Of a DNA stretch of 64,000 bases, positions 26,348-34,128 are shown piece after piece (position 1 is the first letter of the stretch; the number at the start of each line of letters is the position of its first letter). The translations under genes were made by a program, and so were the position numbers. The notes under the pieces were generated by a model that was not told the DNA's origin, searched no databases, and saw only the letters and a program-made list of their open reading frames with translations. The DNA comes from an uncultured Bacteroidota bacterium. Lineage in GTDB: Bacteria; Bacteroidota; Bacteroidia; Chitinophagales; Chitinophagaceae. The stretch lies in the NCBI GenBank assembly GCA_903906365.1, contig CAIVKC010000040.1:1-64000 (forward strand). Direction: 5' to 3'.

Positions 26348-29083
26348 TTAGGGTTTGGCGTTAAAATCGCCGGCATAGATCAGCGTTAGCTTCGCCTGGT
26401 CCACATATTTTCTGAGTACGGCATTTACATCCCCCAGTTTTAGATTTTTAACCTTATTTTCCAGTTCCGTGTAGTAATTCAGATCAAGGCCTTTTTCAAG
26501 GTAATCCGAAAGCCTGATTGCCAGGAAATTATCAATTCCCAGGTAAGTCTTCCGCTGCTGCAGCCAGCTGGCCACCGACTTGCGGAATTCATCCTCTGTG
26601 AAGCCTCCCTTCAGGGCCTTATTGATTTCCTCGTGCAAGGCGCTGTCCAGGCGGTTTTTGAAAACAGGATTAAAAATGGCATATACGCCCCATGAGGAAG
26701 CAGGGTATCTGAAATTGGCATTCAGGAAAGATCCGGCTCCATAGCTCATTCCTTCTGTTTCACGCAGCCGCTGGGGAATTCGCGAGGACAGAAAGGCACC
26801 ACCGCCCAATAACTCATTGGCGATCTCCAGGGCCGGATAATCGGGATCGGTTTGTTTCAGGGCGAGGTTGATACTTCCCATACAAACAGCATTCTTTTTG
26901 TCGGCGATATTGATGACTTCGGTACTGCCCTTGACATCAAAAAACTTTTCTTCGATATCCCCATAAGGCTGCTTTGCATTGAAGCCACCCAGGCTCTTTT
27001 CAATAAAGGCCGTGATCAGCTTTTGGTCAATATTTCCGACAAAACCGGCATAACCATGTCCCATGCCGTAGAATTCTTCATAAAAATGCCGCAGGTCATC
27101 CACCGTTACTTTTTTAAGGTCCTCCAGGCTTTCGGCTATGCTTTCCGGATACAGGGGATGCCCCTGGGGATAGAGGGAAACCTTTTTACTGAGGCTGATG
27201 GAGGCTATGTATTGCGGGTCACTCTGGTTGGATTCATATTCGCCCTTCAGGTCCAGCACCATCTTATCAAATTCGTTTTTATCGAAGGAGGGATGCAACA
27301 GCATATCTGCCAGCAGGTCCAGGGCTGCCTCCAGGTTGTCTTTGTCGGTATTTAAAGAAATGCTGAGATTAGGGCCGTCCCCACTGATATCAATGGAACT
27401 TTTGATCTTGTCAAGCAGGTCGTTAATCTGTTTTTTTGTCCGGGTAGCCGTACCGTATTTTAGCATGCGTGCAGTCAGCTGGGGTATGAGGTTCTTGCCG
27501 GACAGGCTGTTTTCGTTCCCTAGTTTAATGACAAAACTGCCATAAACCTTATCCCCTTTCACCGGCTTTTTGAGGAGTGCATAACCAAATCCGTTAGCGG
27601 CCTTGCCATATTGGGTGTTTTTCCGGATGTTTTCAATGCTGGTTTCAAATGACTCCGTCTGCAGGCGGGTGGCTTTTCCCTGGTAATTTTTTACCAGAGC
27701 ACCCACATCAGGTCTTTCTCCGACCACTACCCGCTGGGCCGTCTTATCAGAAAGGAACACACCCCAGGTGCGGTTGCTGGGCAGGTAATATTTCTTCATT
27801 GCAGCCTGGACCTCGCTCAGGGTAAGCTTTTCCAGCCTGTCACGGTAAATATAGAAAAGACGCCAATCCCCCGCCCCGATTACCTCGGCAAGACCTATAC
27901 AGAAATTCAAGGTATTGTCCTGCATATCTGAAACCTGCTTACTCAACGTGTTTTTAGCGCGGTCCAGGTCTTCCTGGCTGATCTCTAGGGATGAGATTTT
28001 ATCGGCGGCGCTCAGGAAGGCGTTCCGGGCGCTGTCCAGGTTTTTATCCATCGGTACGCTGCAGCTGAAATAGGAAAATCCCGGGTCAAACAGGGTCTGA
28101 CTGTATCCGGAGACATTAGTGGCCAGTTTGGTTTCCACGAGTGCTTTGTAAAAAACACCAGATGGATCGTTGGTCAGAATGGCGATGACGGCGTCATTGG
28201 CTACATAGTCCTTATCAGAATAAGCCGGTGTGTGATATGCCATTCCGATATACTGGATATCCCCGTTTCGCCTGAGTTCTACGTATCTTTCCCCGTCCTG
28301 AGGAGGCTCCACGGTATACGGTGGCTGGATGACTCGAGTTGGCTTGGATATGCTCCCGAAATATTTAGAGATCAGGGAAAGTGTCGCTTTTTCATCAAAA
28401 TGACCGCCCACAATCAGCGTGGCATTGTCGGGTTGATAATATTTTCGGTAAAAAGCCCGGAGATTATCAATGGGGACACGTTCTATGTCTTCCTTGCTGC
28501 CGATGGTGGATTTGCCATAATTGTGCCAAAGGTACATGGTGGACAAAATCCTTTCCTGCAAGATATTACCCGGGTAATTTTCCCCCGATTCAAACTCGTT
28601 CCTGACCACCGAGAATTCCTTCTTGAGGTCCTCCTGTTTCATCAGGCTGTTGACCATGCGGTCCGCTTCCATTTCCAGGGCCCAGCTAAGGTTGCTGTCC
28701 TTTGCAGGCAATATTTCATAATAATCCGTCCTGTCATACCAGGTGGTGCCGTTTGCGAATGCCCCCTTATCAGCAATGGTTTGTTTGATGCTGGAAAATT
28801 TACGGGAACCCTTGAACATCATGTGTTCCAGCAAATGAGCCATCCCGGTTTCTCCGTACCCTTCCTGGCGGGAACCCACATGATAAACCACGTTAACCAC
28901 CACATTGGTCAAAGCCGGATCGGGCACTAGCAGTATCTGCAAGCCGTTATCAAGCCTGTATTCCTTCACATTTTCCACAGCCGTAACAGCCACCGGCATT
29001 TTGAAAACAGGCCCTGTTTTGGGCTGGGCCAACAAGCCCGAAAAAAATGCCAACCAACAAATACTTAAAATTATTCTTTTCAT
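26348..29083 (-). CDS. M16-family zinc peptidase (pitrilysin-like), two-domain
   Basis: 911 residues from the ATG at 29083, which gives a signal peptide (MKRIILSICWLAFFSGLLAQ). It contains the inverted zinc motif HxxEH as His83-Leu-Leu-Glu86-His87 in MAHLLEHMMFKGS, and the distal zinc ligand glutamate in VVRNEFESGEN about 80 residues on. The second half (from about residue 500) repeats the fold without the motif, as in other fused M16 proteins. Periplasmic degradation of peptides is the expected role. It is a single-gene unit with a -7 box upstream and converges on the ROK kinase. Confidence 0.94.
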   Translation of the reverse strand: MKRIILSICWLAFFSGLLAQPKTGPVFKMPVAVTAVENVKEYRLDNGLQILLVPDPALTNVVVNVVYHVGSRQEGYGETGMAHLLEHMMFKGSRKFSSIKQTIADKGAFANGTTWYDRTDYYEILPAKDSNLSWALEMEADRMVNSLMKQEDLKKEFSVVRNEFESGENYPGNILQERILSTMYLWHNYGKSTIGSKEDIERVPIDNLRAFYRKYYQPDNATLIVGGHFDEKATLSLISKYFGSISKPTRVIQPPYTVEPPQDGERYVELRRNGDIQYIGMAYHTPAYSDKDYVANDAVIAILTNDPSGVFYKALVETKLATNVSGYSQTLFDPGFSYFSCSVPMDKNLDSARNAFLSAADKISSLEISQEDLDRAKNTLSKQVSDMQDNTLNFCIGLAEVIGAGDWRLFYIYRDRLEKLTLSEVQAAMKKYYLPSNRTWGVFLSDKTAQRVVVGERPDVGALVKNYQGKATRLQTESFETSIENIRKNTQYGKAANGFGYALLKKPVKGDKVYGSFVIKLGNENSLSGKNLIPQLTARMLKYGTATRTKKQINDLLDKIKSSIDISGDGPNLSISLNTDKDNLEAALDLLADMLLHPSFDKNEFDKMVLDLKGEYESNQSDPQYIASISLSKKVSLYPQGHPLYPESIAESLEDLKKVTVDDLRHFYEEFYGMGHGYAGFVGNIDQKLITAFIEKSLGGFNAKQPYGDIEEKFFDVKGSTEVINIADKKNAVCMGSINLALKQTDPDYPALEIANELLGGGAFLSSRIPQRLRETEGMSYGAGSFLNANFRYPASSWGVYAIFNPVFKNRLDSALHEEINKALKGGFTEDEFRKSVASWLQQRKTYLGIDNFLAIRLSDYLEKGLDLNYYTELENKVKNLKLGDVNAVLRKYVDQAKLTLIYAGDFNAKP

Positions 29084-29200
29084 AAAACAGGTTTTACTCA
29101 TTAATAGGGTTTGCTTTTCAAGGTTTTATCCACTGCACTTTTATTTATCTGCTTGATCTGGGTTTTTGGCAATGAAGGCCAATGGCGAAATCCCGCCCTA

Positions 29201-29254: not shown

Positions 29255-32200
29255 CTATCGGACCAGCACCACCGTTCCCTTGAATAACTGGCTCCCCCCG
29301 CCGGCCAGTTCAACAATCACATAGTATACGTAGGTTCCCGCCGCCGCCTGCTGACCTTTAAACATGCCATTCCAGCCATAGCGGGGATCATTGGCAGGCA
29401 CATGGCCAACATGGAATACAGGCTGCCCCAGCCGGGTATATATAGAAAATTCTTTTAAACCGACGATATCCCGGCTACCCAATATGTAGAAAATGTCATT
29501 GCGGCCATCCCCGTTGGGTGTAAAGGCATTGGGGATATCCACATAGCCCCCCGCAAAGGTTTTAACCTGGGCGTAGGCTGTATCCAGGCACTGGTTTTCA
29601 TTTTGCGCAATGAAAGAATATTCCATGGAATAGGGAGGGGTAACCACAGGGGTCAGGCAATTACTGCAGGAAAGGTATTCGGTGGGTTGCCAGGTAAATT
29701 GCTGGAGTTGGCCGCCTGTCACCGAACCGACCAGTCCTACAGTGGTTTCCCGGAAAACGGTGGTATCCGAGGGACTGATAAGTGCCCTAAAGGGAACTAT
29801 GATTTTGTGATCGGAATTATTGCTGTAATCAGTTTCTGTAAAAACCTTATCGGGCACCTGGGCCGGGTTATCGCCCCGGTCATTGACTACCGCATAGAGA
29901 TCTTTGGTCTGAAGGGGCGAATTGACTATAAAGCTGAACGTATCACAGGTAGCAGGGTAAATATGCGGGGTATGAAAAACTGGTTCCAGCAGCTGGGCCC
30001 GGCCCCCGGATGGATTGCCATCATAAAAAGAAACCGGCAGATCGGTCATTAGGCTGTCATAGTTGTTTTTAATGCATAGCAGGAATTTTACCAGGGTAGT
30101 ACTGTTGCTGTAACAACTGGTCTGCAGAATCTGAAGGGTAAGATCCGGAGGGAAAACATGGACGGTGGCTGTACCCTTTATCAGGCAACCGTATTGGTTG
30201 GAGGTCTCCATGTGAACCACAGCGGAATCCATCACAGTAATGACGGGTGCCTGGCATTGCAGACATCTGAGTGTATAACCATTGCCAGGATACCAGGCAG
30301 TGGAAGCCGGGTCATAAATGGTTGTATTGATGGAAAATGGGAAGGATTGCTTTCTCAATATGGTGGTATCTGCAGGCTGGAGGGAAACGGTGGCAGGCTG
30401 GTAGGCAAATACCGCTGAATTATTGGTATAATCCTTTTCCAGAAATAGGGTGTCGAAAGGAAAAATAAGGGGGATAGTCGCTCCATTTGCGTTTACCACG
30501 CCATACACCGAGCCTGAACCTCCCCCCAGGCCCTTAAAAGTAAAGTTAAAGGATGCACACTTTGCAAGTTCGTCCGAGCCAACAGTGAAGACGGGACCCA
30601 GCTGGTGGGCCCCGGGCCCTGAGGGATCCGCATCAAAAAAGGAAACCGCTAACCCTTTTGGTATTATACCTCTCTTGAAAAGGTTACAAATGGTAAATCC
30701 TGCCGCCAGGCTGTCATTGGCCGAACAGTTGATTGAATCTATGACAAGGGTGTAATCATCAGCCGGGGGGATATGAATTACGGAAAAGCCGGTATCGGCA
30801 CATCCGTAATTATTTATAGCGACCACCTCTTTGGTGATGTCCTTTTTACCGGCTATAAATATTGTACTGTCACATAATGTGCAGCTGATACCCTGAGGGG
30901 TACTCCACTGGTAAAAGGAGGCCGTACCAGGCCCGGAAACAGCCCTTAAGGCAATGGTGTCCCCGGGAAGCAGGGTGGTATCCGCCGGTAAGGCACTGAC
31001 CTGGAAATGTTTATAATCAATGGAGGACACATTGTTGGCATAATTCTTTTCAGGAAAATTCTGATTGTTGGGAAGTTGCAGGGGTATGGTCGTACCATTA
31101 TCATTGACAGCCGCAAAGACTTTGCCGGTGGTGGTTCTTTTAATGATTGCCGTATAAGCGGCACAGAGTCCCGGACTGGCGGAAGGAGTCCTGAAAACGG
31201 GACCAAGGATTTGGGAATTGGGGGAAGCCGGATCTCCATCATAGAGGCTCACTGAAAGGCCGGACGGAATATTACCCTTATTGAACAGGTTGCAAAGGGT
31301 GAACCCTACCTGCAGGCTGTCGGAACCGGCGCAATCTGCGCTGTCCAACCGTATGGTAAAATCATCATAGGGGGGAATACTGATCACAACAAAGGAACTG
31401 TCCACACAGCCATAGCTGGTTGTACCAATGAGCTTTTTGGTTATGGTATAAATCTTTTTTTCGGCGATAAAAAAAGGTGTAAGACATACCGTGCAGTTCA
31501 GATCCTGCGGGGTACTCCATACAAAAGAGGAGGAATAGCCAAAACCGAATGCATGATTAAGGCTCACACCCAGCTGCAGCGTATCAAAAGGCAGCAAGGA
31601 AACTGCCGACGGAATTACGTTTACCTTGAACTGAAAATTATTAGTAAAGGAACTATTGTTGGTATAATTTGTTTCCGGCAAAGGAGTATTGGGCAGCACC
31701 AGCGGACTGGTCGTTCCGCTGTCGTTTACCACCCCGTAAAGCTGGTTCAGGCCGGGTGTGGTAATATTGAGGATGGTCGAATAGGAAAAACAGCATTTCC
31801 CCGCCACAGCGGTAGGCAGGAAAAAGGTTGGGGACAATTTCCTGGCTCCGGCCACCTTGGGATCTGCATCATAAAAGGAAACCGGTGTCCCGGCAGGGAT
31901 GGGCACATACCCGTTGTTACAAACGGTCATTGTCACTAGCAGCTTGTTTTCATGGTAACATTCCACGTCATTGAAATACAAAGTGGCATCCACGGTTGGA
32001 TCGTAGACAGGAAAATAGAACTTTTCTGTGGTATCGACACAGGATCCATTAGAAGCTACCAGCCAGACCTGGTAATTACCAGGCGTGGAAAAGGTGTAGT
32101 TGAGGTTGACGGCAGTGCTTACGATGTGTGGTGCCATGCCCGCATCATTGGCCATCCACCACTGAAAGGAAGTCGCCTGATCGGAACGGTTGGTGAAAAA

Positions 32201-33412
32201 TATGCTGTCCAATAAAATAGGTGCTTTGGCAGCAATCTGCCGAATATCCGGGTAAAACCTGGCTGTCACCCCGCAGTTCACCAAAATGAAGTCCGAATAG
32301 GTAGCATAGCAGGCGCCATCCGTGTTGTAGACCTTCAAAGTGACTTTGAATTTACCAGCCATGGGAAAAACCTGAGCATACGAGGGGCTATTGCTGCCCA
32401 CTACTTTCCCATCCACACTCCACTGGTAATTAGTTCCGCCGGTGGAAGAGCTGGTAAAATGAATGATATCACCTGCCTTGGGGGTCCAGTTGTCCCTTTG
32501 AAAATTGGCCACAATATTTTCACTGCAGGGGGGATTACACTTACTGGTAGCAATCAGCCCGCTTCGGAAGGTTGTGAGGTTGGTAATCATTTTTTGGGCC
32601 TGGCCCTTGGTAAAAGAATTACCACAGGCACTCTGGCTCATGAAATTGGAGGTAAGGTCCGGAACATCGGTTGGAAAAAAACCGTTGGAATGGTTGGATA
32701 AGGTATCGGTCACGCAGCTATTCTGCAAGCTTGCGCAGGAACCCCCTGGCTGGCTGGCTGGTGGCGTATCACACACGCCGTCACCGTCGACGGCACAATT
32801 GTTATTGGTACAATCATTCAGCACATAAGTGGTATGCAGCCCGAGATAGCCGGCAACCAGGAAGGCAAGCGGGGCACCGAAACCTGCTGTAACCACCCCA
32901 TCGGTAAATTTCCCATCACTTTCAAAGGTGGAATATTCCAGGTTATGGGTTCGGGTCCAAATACCACAGCTGAAATTGGTATAGTCCTCACTTTTGACTC
33001 CGTCCACGTACCATATATTGCAATATTGTCTTGTATCCCAGGAGACCAGGTTTTTCAGTCTGTCATCTTCGGTATTCTTGTCAAAATTGGTCAAATCCGA
33101 CTTGGTGCGAGTGATTCCTGTTGTAATGCCCCCATCAGGGTCGGTCCTGGCCAGGCAGAACGTAATTCCGGTATTGGCTCCCGGTCCGCCTGCGGCATAG
33201 GGTCCCGTGTGAGCGAAGGCATCATTGAGGTCTTTGAGCCCGTTGATCATAACAGAATCAGGTATGGCATCCGGATTGAGGCTTACGATATGAAAGACTA
33301 CCGGTATAACATATACCGGAGGCGGATTGGTCTGTCCAAAACAGCAAGACGCAGGAAGGCCTAGCATAAAAAAAAGAAGGGCCCTGGATAACAGATGGTG
33401 TTGCATTTTCAT
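29255..33412 (-). CDS. Large T9SS-exported protein with a degenerate M43-like domain
   Basis: 1385 residues from the ATG at 33412 with a signal peptide ending near CCFGQ. The first 290 residues match M43 (pappalysin/cytophagalysin) proteases: VYVIPVVFHIV at the start, NNNCAVDGDGVCDTPP after the active-site region and the Met-turn NFMSQSACGNSFTKGQAQKM. However, the HExxHxxGxxH site reads FLVAGYLGLHT (residues 184-194), so no zinc ligand set remains. A PKD domain (about 295-375) is followed by four modules of about 200-230 residues, each with LYFxxVxC-type, FCxYS and TDYxNNS elements and a CxxC such as NCTVC or SCTLC. The last 95 residues, from IPNAFTPNGDGRNDIF, are a T9SS type-B (gliding motility) sorting domain. 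It is probably a surface adhesin-like or binding protein. Confidence 0.92.
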   Translation of the reverse strand: MKMQHHLLSRALLFFMLGLPASCCFGQTNPPPVYVIPVVFHIVSLNPDAIPDSVMINGLKDLNDAFAHTGPYAAGGPGANTGITFCLARTDPDGGITTGITRTKSDLTNFDKNTEDDRLKNLVSWDTRQYCNIWYVDGVKSEDYTNFSCGIWTRTHNLEYSTFESDGKFTDGVVTAGFGAPLAFLVAGYLGLHTTYVLNDCTNNNCAVDGDGVCDTPPASQPGGSCASLQNSCVTDTLSNHSNGFFPTDVPDLTSNFMSQSACGNSFTKGQAQKMITNLTTFRSGLIATSKCNPPCSENIVANFQRDNWTPKAGDIIHFTSSSTGGTNYQWSVDGKVVGSNSPSYAQVFPMAGKFKVTLKVYNTDGACYATYSDFILVNCGVTARFYPDIRQIAAKAPILLDSIFFTNRSDQATSFQWWMANDAGMAPHIVSTAVNLNYTFSTPGNYQVWLVASNGSCVDTTEKFYFPVYDPTVDATLYFNDVECYHENKLLVTMTVCNNGYVPIPAGTPVSFYDADPKVAGARKLSPTFFLPTAVAGKCCFSYSTILNITTPGLNQLYGVVNDSGTTSPLVLPNTPLPETNYTNNSSFTNNFQFKVNVIPSAVSLLPFDTLQLGVSLNHAFGFGYSSSFVWSTPQDLNCTVCLTPFFIAEKKIYTITKKLIGTTSYGCVDSSFVVISIPPYDDFTIRLDSADCAGSDSLQVGFTLCNLFNKGNIPSGLSVSLYDGDPASPNSQILGPVFRTPSASPGLCAAYTAIIKRTTTGKVFAAVNDNGTTIPLQLPNNQNFPEKNYANNVSSIDYKHFQVSALPADTTLLPGDTIALRAVSGPGTASFYQWSTPQGISCTLCDSTIFIAGKKDITKEVVAINNYGCADTGFSVIHIPPADDYTLVIDSINCSANDSLAAGFTICNLFKRGIIPKGLAVSFFDADPSGPGAHQLGPVFTVGSDELAKCASFNFTFKGLGGGSGSVYGVVNANGATIPLIFPFDTLFLEKDYTNNSAVFAYQPATVSLQPADTTILRKQSFPFSINTTIYDPASTAWYPGNGYTLRCLQCQAPVITVMDSAVVHMETSNQYGCLIKGTATVHVFPPDLTLQILQTSCYSNSTTLVKFLLCIKNNYDSLMTDLPVSFYDGNPSGGRAQLLEPVFHTPHIYPATCDTFSFIVNSPLQTKDLYAVVNDRGDNPAQVPDKVFTETDYSNNSDHKIIVPFRALISPSDTTVFRETTVGLVGSVTGGQLQQFTWQPTEYLSCSNCLTPVVTPPYSMEYSFIAQNENQCLDTAYAQVKTFAGGYVDIPNAFTPNGDGRNDIFYILGSRDIVGLKEFSIYTRLGQPVFHVGHVPANDPRYGWNGMFKGQQAAAGTYVYYVIVELAGGGSQLFKGTVVLVR

Positions 33413-33558
33413 GGAACTCAACTAATTTTTTTCCAGCCGGTGCGGATATTCCAAATCAGTACACACGGCCTTTAAAGCAAAATATAGATCTGGCAAGTGA
33501 TTGATTCACTCCGGTTACAGGTATCCTGTTTTCCAGACATACTCCCCCAGGGGCCACC

Positions 33559-34128
33559 CTATTTTTCTACCATCATTTTCTGCATATTCTGCAGGCCATA
33601 GCGCATGCGTCCAAGCGCAGTATTGATGCTGCAGCCAGTCATCTCGGCAATGGTCCGGAATGGAATATTCCCATAATGACGAAGCAGGATTACCTCCAAC
33701 TGTTCCCTGGGTAATTTATCCAGCGCCTTTCTGACCTGCTCGCTGATTTCCCTGCGTATAATTCCCATATCAGAAGGCTGGGACATAAAAAGACTGGGGC
33801 AATCCTGTTCCTGCAGGTATTTATCCTGCCATTTCTGTCCTCTTTTTGTCTTCCTGAAATAATCCATGCACAGCCGGTAGGCAAGCTGCATGAGCCAGGG
33901 TTGAAAACGACCGGCTTCCTTGTACTTGCCCTGCCTGAGGGATTCGAAAAGTTTGATAAATAGGTCCTGGAAGATATCTTCGGCAGTATGCCTTTCTTTG
34001 ACCAGGGAAAGAATGAAAGTATAGGTGCCATCCTTGTAGCGGTGAACCAGTTTTTCCAGGGCATTGGTCTCTCCTGACTGGAAACGACGGATGAGTTCAC
34101 GGTCGGTTAAGGTTTGGGAGTATATCAT
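33559..34128 (-). CDS. ECF-type RNA polymerase sigma factor
   Basis: 189 residues. Sigma region 2 (about 20-95) shows HTAEDIFQDLFIKLFESL and WLMQLAYRLCMDYFRK. Region 4 (about 130-185) reads LPREQLEVILLRHYGNIPFRTIAEMTGCSINTALGRMRYGLQNM with its helix-turn-helix. No anti-sigma gene is adjacent, which is common in Bacteroidota. The stop lies 146 bases upstream of the start of the large T9SS protein on the same strand, so control of that gene is possible but not shown. Confidence 0.92.
   Translation of the reverse strand: MIYSQTLTDRELIRRFQSGETNALEKLVHRYKDGTYTFILSLVKERHTAEDIFQDLFIKLFESLRQGKYKEAGRFQPWLMQLAYRLCMDYFRKTKRGQKWQDKYLQEQDCPSLFMSQPSDMGIIRREISEQVRKALDKLPREQLEVILLRHYGNIPFRTIAEMTGCSINTALGRMRYGLQNMQKMMVEK

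Follow-up and report, generated by a model that had tools for sequence, protein, structure and literature searches.

A T9SS type-B protein of a Chitinophagaceae bacterium with an N-terminal pappalysin (M43) domain that appears to have become a conserved pseudoprotease

The gene at positions 29255–33412 (minus strand) of the window, the 64,000 nt stretch of contig CAIVKC010000040.1 analysed here, encodes a T9SS type-B protein of 1385 aa whose N-terminal domain has the M43/pappalysin fold and has lost its catalytic site. The domain is probably a pseudoprotease conserved in a clade and used as a non-catalytic binding head. In the proposed course of events, the latency propeptide (cysteine switch) would have been lost in an ancestor common to the window clade and its catalytically intact sisters. 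In the window clade, replacement of all three zinc-ligand histidines, of the catalytic Glu and of the tyrosine switch would have followed, with retention of the structural residues (those of the calcium loop, the cysteines and the Met-turn Met). The domain would bind through the old substrate cleft or an adjacent surface, and would be carried by the PKD domains and by a stalk built of beta-sandwich modules. The order of steps from protease to pseudoenzyme can seldom be observed; in this case, a single genus with both intact and dead kin indicates that the latency element went first. Pseudoenzymes are common and pseudoproteases are known; what appears to be new is the absence of the switch propeptide from a whole lineage, intact sisters included.

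The minus-strand reading frame is open and clean over 1385 codons from an ATG; the ORF list gives a TTG at 33421 as the start. The encoded protein begins with a signal peptide (residues ~1–25, positions 33338–33412), recognized by visual inspection of this sequence and of the relatives' N-termini. It is followed by the M43/pappalysin-fold domain (residues ~33–290, positions 32543–33316), two PKD domains (residues 313–369, positions 32306–32476, and residues 392–463, positions 32024–32239), four tandem modules (positions 31367–31999, 30767–31366, 30152–30760 and 29555–30148) and the sorting domain (residues 1292–1385, positions 29258–29539), all on the minus strand. The four tandem modules named in the preliminary description are real and have mutual identities of 28–41%. 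Module 1 is predicted to form two beta-sandwiches (pLDDT 90), and four such modules would plausibly give a stalk of about eight beta-sandwich domains. Foldseek with the module 1 model finds generic immunoglobulin-like matches with TM-scores of ~0.2–0.4, and no specific family is named for the modules. By a module profile the window protein has four copies, the dead relatives L060–L062 have two each and the intact L063–L065 three each; the count for L066 is incomplete, as the contig end cuts the gene.

The C-terminal end, previously read as T9SS type-B, scores 49.2 bits with CHU_C and 39 bits with TIGR04131. The genome (4.66 Mb, 99.94% complete) encodes SprA (2406 bits) and has 12 type-B sorting domains above the cut-off, that of the window protein among them. 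Both features of a T9SS type-B cargo are found, the C-terminal domain by profiles and the signal peptide by eye. Export of the protein by the T9SS is plausible because SprA and type-B sorting domains are present in the genome.

The N-terminal domain is homologous to the M43/lower pappalysin catalytic domain, with a marginal match to the Pfam profile. PF05572 scores 20.6 bits with the whole protein, under the cut-off of 23, but 23.4 bits with the first 285 residues and 24.2 bits in the genome search. Profile homology is stronger to mirolysin (98.6 bits) and ulilysin (66–69 bits). An AlphaFold model of the domain made from ten sequences has a mean pLDDT of 51 and was used for a Foldseek match alone and not for the cleft; all 11 of 11 matches at E <= 0.001 are to mirolysin/ulilysin. 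The structural comparison with M43 proteases proposed earlier thus recovers the fold, though from a poor model.

The segment FLVAGYLGLHT (residues 184–194 from the ATG, positions 32831–32863) aligns with HExxHxxGxxH of the relatives, exactly as had been noted from the sequence. All four site residues are changed: the first His to Phe, the Glu to Leu, the second His to Gly and the third His to Thr. The Gly and YLGL are kept. HExxHxxGxxH is thus absent from the domain. The alignment also confirms that DGDGVCDTPP (residues 209–218, positions 32759–32788) and the Met of the Met-turn NFMSQS (residues 256–261, positions 32630–32647) are retained: the calcium-loop Asp and Thr (for their role, see PMC11674741), the cysteine positions and the Met-turn Met are all kept as residues. 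The tyrosine switch, at Met+2 of the Met-turn (role described in PMC6949598), is Gln in the window protein, a loss that the preliminary description had missed. It is lost in seven of 58 aligned rows, i.e., the window protein, L004, L005, L006, L008, L042 and L007, in the last although the zinc site is intact. The domain is most likely a homologue of the M43 fold that has lost peptidase activity. On this evidence the protein should not be annotated as an M43 peptidase, because the defining zinc site was tested for and is absent, and among secreted Bacteroidota proteins a match to M43 is not always the mark of a protease.

At the position of the S1' aspartate (Met+5 in mirolysin, see PMC6949598) the window protein has Cys, as judged by spacing. 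In this Met-turn region (positions 32620–32650) the aspartate is absent from nearly all of the subfamily members compared, intact ones included; it is present in L039 and L001. Because it is missing in nearly all of the members compared, the substrate preference of the active ones may differ from Arg/Lys.

The subfamily (E <= 1e-20) is carried by seven of the 33 genomes sampled from the genus, 18 of which are at least 90% complete; these are the window genome and six relatives. Among weaker matches, those taken as loci were examined. The named records of the relatives are metagenome assemblies assigned to Chitinophagaceae, Bacteroidota/Bacteroidetes, Sphingobacteriales, Flavobacteriales or uncultured bacterium. 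The site is lost in four of the six same-genus relatives (L004, L005, L006 and L008, with SYMGSYLGLKY, ALMGSYLGLKY, SLMGSWLGLKY and SLMGSYLGLKY) and intact in two (L007 and L009, with HEMGHYLGLSH and HEAGHYLGLKH). The five dead copies are monophyletic, with support of 95/86 when the motif columns are removed, and of 95/84 when the tyrosine column is removed as well. Parsimony favors one loss of the site in this clade; two losses are possible because the replacement letters of the window protein differ from those of the quartet. A topology that makes L007 the sister of the dead clade, considered in view of the NFMSLSG common to L007 and the quartet, is not the best tree (p-AU 0.331, not rejected).

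Within the dead quartet dN/dS is 0.10–0.19 at dS of 0.72–1.13, which indicates purifying selection. For the window branch the case for selection is less secure, because comparisons of the window copy with the relatives are at or near saturation at synonymous sites. In the quartet, ten of the 14 positions 184–197 are invariant, with Ser at the second-His position and Tyr at the third-His position in 4/4. The dead form appears to be a conserved trait of the clade and not a decaying domain. Thus the loss asked about in the preliminary description is conserved in the clade, though as the SLMGSYLGLKY type rather than in the letters FLVAG. That description had also named intact close orthologues together with a single recent mutation as the finding that would contradict it; the quartet is dead as well, though the two close relatives are intact.

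That the window site is an assembly or sequencing error, or that the gene is in decay, is barely credible. The window letters F, L, G and T are unlike those of the dead relatives, as such an explanation would allow, but the frame is clean over its whole length and at least eight base changes separate the four site codons from His/Glu/His/His codons, in agreement with the earlier reading of codon substitutions without a frameshift. In addition, the loss is common to four other genomes and purifying selection is seen among these, and an error or frameshift at the site was rejected. Another metal site or chemistry, by which the domain would still be an enzyme, is very improbable: the window protein does have a His one residue ahead of the third-ligand position (HT for xH), but the same His is Lys in the quartet, and the Glu, every ligand and the tyrosine switch have been lost.

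The domain would qualify as a pseudoprotease on two properties, catalytic residues lost in a recognizable protease fold and retention in a clade under purifying selection, the latter measured within the quartet. Of the overall reading in the preliminary description, the pseudoprotease and the T9SS type-B parts are supported; a use in binding and a place on the cell surface, like the absence of zinc and of proteolysis, are what we infer from the sequence.

Purifying selection by itself fits a binding role or a folding requirement alike. The dead domain could be without a specific role of its own and be kept since its folding is needed for the export and stability of a long protein. This is unlikely on balance but is the alternative to be taken most seriously: the kept residues are scaffold residues, the number of stalk modules varies freely, and no partner gene is conserved in the stretches compared. 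However, the quartet conserves the replaced positions too, at the Ser, the Tyr and the invariant positions given above, and such conservation would be unneeded in a spacer. A non-catalytic binding head remains the preferred explanation.

In lower pappalysins, latency is described as due to a Cys of a short prosegment, in a Cys-Gly motif, that blocks the zinc (PMC6949598, PMC8259862). The signal peptide of the window protein reaches the M43 domain within ~10 residues and there is no cysteine-switch propeptide, a feature also missed in the preliminary description. The four dead relatives likewise have a signal peptide that almost abuts the domain, and no switch propeptide. The sisters L064 (intact) and L066 (Glu to Asn) are also without the prosegment, and the N-terminal stretch of L007 and L009, both intact, contains no Cys. 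L035, the next sister of this nine-row switch-less clade, has the switch. These features, scored by eye from printed N-termini, point to loss of the switch at the base of the nine-row clade and ahead of the zinc site, because intact sisters are without the switch while L035 has it. Automatic scoring of the switch cysteine was abandoned, as the rule misjudged many rows in which the Cys lay before its cut. A single clade of the 11 switch-less rows of the dead-clade area is not the best tree (p-AU 0.465, not rejected).

Changes of the site are also found in other lineages. L042, from another genus (genome G068), has SCMGTYLSLLP, with the whole site and the tyrosine lost and the switch Cys missing; its sister L037 has an intact site and a prosegment without the switch Cys. 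The loss in L042 lies on a separate branch and appears to be independent of that in the window clade. A search of three genomes of its genus, two of them incomplete, matched only L042 and found no second copy of this form. L102 (genome G722, contig 97) has HETGHYLGLKD, in which the third ligand is Asp for His. It pairs with the intact L098, and both are without the prosegment; L102 may still bind zinc through the Asp, or be active. L156 (genome G677) has HELGRYLGLYD, with the second and third ligands changed and no Cys at the switch position, and is on a long branch.

Three other proteins are changed at the Glu only. L066 has HNLGHYLGLKH (Asn) and no switch, L013 has HQVGHWLGLYH (Gln) with the switch Cys present, and L057 has HQMGH (Gln), also with the switch Cys. 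L057 is in tandem with the intact L041 (HEMGH), ~3 kb apart on contig 3 of genome G255, and no further domain detected in its genus, among those for which the motif was read, has the Gln form. The HQMGH of L057 might bind zinc without cutting. The two Glu to Gln changes, in L057 and L013, arose with the switch cysteine still there, which is counter to a switch-first reading.

A census of 143 distinct domains, from which 33 loci repeating an already sampled place had been dropped, and whose rows are drawn from searches with the window protein and related proteins, shows His, Glu, His and His at the site in 132; 11 differ. Removal of two contig-edge fragments (L020 and L026) gives 141 rows, and a quick tree of these has four changes for zinc-ligand His (eight rows) and five for the switch Cys (15 rows). 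Every one of the eight His-changed rows is switch-less. The seven switch-less rows that keep the histidines are L007, L009, L037, L050, L064, L066 and L098. In one set of 51 domains, 50 have both site and switch (the switch scored by eye) and L156 has neither.

The share of the tree length that falls to switch-less lineages is 7.5% when both branch ends are scored and 11% when the lower end is. At an assumed uniform rate, the chance that four of four His changes fall on them is ~3e-5 to 1.5e-4, a post hoc estimate from a quick tree in which 40 of 138 inner branches are starred, and one that counts both L156, where either loss may have come first, and L102, where Asp may bind zinc. It is to be taken as a guide and not as proof. 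An independent-pairs sign test gives a median p of 0.5, with no pair in the opposite direction. When Glu-only losses were included, in an earlier set of 58 rows, the result was weaker, at 0.008–0.17 for three of four catalytic losses, dependent on the denominator. A pattern in which the latency element goes first seems to recur in these lineages. It is quite possible, though somewhat less likely than not, that in T9SS pappalysins loss of the switch propeptide is a gateway, such that unlatched enzymes repeatedly lose the zinc site and some are kept as binding heads, the window protein being one of about four independent changes. A testable rule would follow: catalysis should be lost more readily in pappalysins without the switch.

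In many families MEROPS includes homologues that are not peptidases. No report of a pappalysin pseudoprotease was found among the titles and opening lines of abstracts listed by full-text searches of the open-access literature. The lower pappalysins (M43B) mirolysin, ulilysin and cytophagalysin are the closest known systems: they have the same fold as the window domain by profile (mirolysin and ulilysin) and fold search, and the calcium-loop, cysteine and Met-turn residues are common to both. Cytophagalysin is described, like the window protein, as a multidomain secreted Bacteroidota protein with Ig-like domains (PMC11674741), and mirolysin as having a T9SS sorting domain (PMC8259862). However, the lower pappalysins are active, latent enzymes, whereas the window protein is without the zinc ligands, the catalytic Glu, the tyrosine switch and the cysteine-switch prosegment. 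L042 is alike in having lost the whole site, the tyrosine and the switch Cys, but is on a separate branch as sister of an intact protein.

Among other metzincins, groups G9 and G10 of the Trypanosoma cruzi GP63 proteins (M8) have the catalytic Glu replaced by Leu or Phe, and the authors suggest that they are non-functional proteases (PMC11957388). These are surface metzincins and, like the window domain, have the catalytic Glu replaced; in contrast to it, loss of a zinc histidine is not reported for them (PMC11957388). The prosegment Cys of GP63 is given there as conserved where the motif is detectable, bar about half of G11 and one deletion in G2, whereas in the window lineage the switch would have been lost first. 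ADAM22 has been described as lacking catalytic activity and, in a title cited in the same article, as an adhesion receptor (PMC4848645). Inactive ADAMs of this kind resemble the window protein in that a dead metzincin domain is part of a multidomain protein, at the cell surface in their case (PMC4848645) and presumably in that of the window protein, but ADAM22 is an animal M12 metzincin with no T9SS, and its adhesion is credited mainly to other domains.

Pseudoproteases such as iRhoms are described as regulators of active relatives. The window domain could likewise bind the substrates or inhibitors of active proteases and so modulate them, e.g., the intact M43 protein L001 (HEIGHWLNLIH) of the same genome. 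This is improbable, as L001 is only ~29% identical and is unlinked, on another contig.

Within the sequence stretches compared, the neighbors of the window gene and those of its relatives have nothing in common, either as a conserved neighborhood or as a partner. Directly downstream of the window gene is a gene for a two-unit M16 peptidase (positions 26348–29101, minus strand); the relatives gave no sign of a link between it and the M43 protein. Directly upstream, in the same orientation, is a gene for a sigma-70-type (ECF-like) factor (positions 33559–34128, minus strand); no such gene adjoins those of the relatives in the stretches compared. The window gene has no histidine-utilization neighbors, unlike the intact M43 genes L063 and L065. 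The matching neighbors of these two (L063:4148–17539) are histidine-utilization genes, which encode formiminotransferase-cyclodeaminase, an amidohydrolase, urocanase and an enzyme of the histidine ammonia-lyase type.
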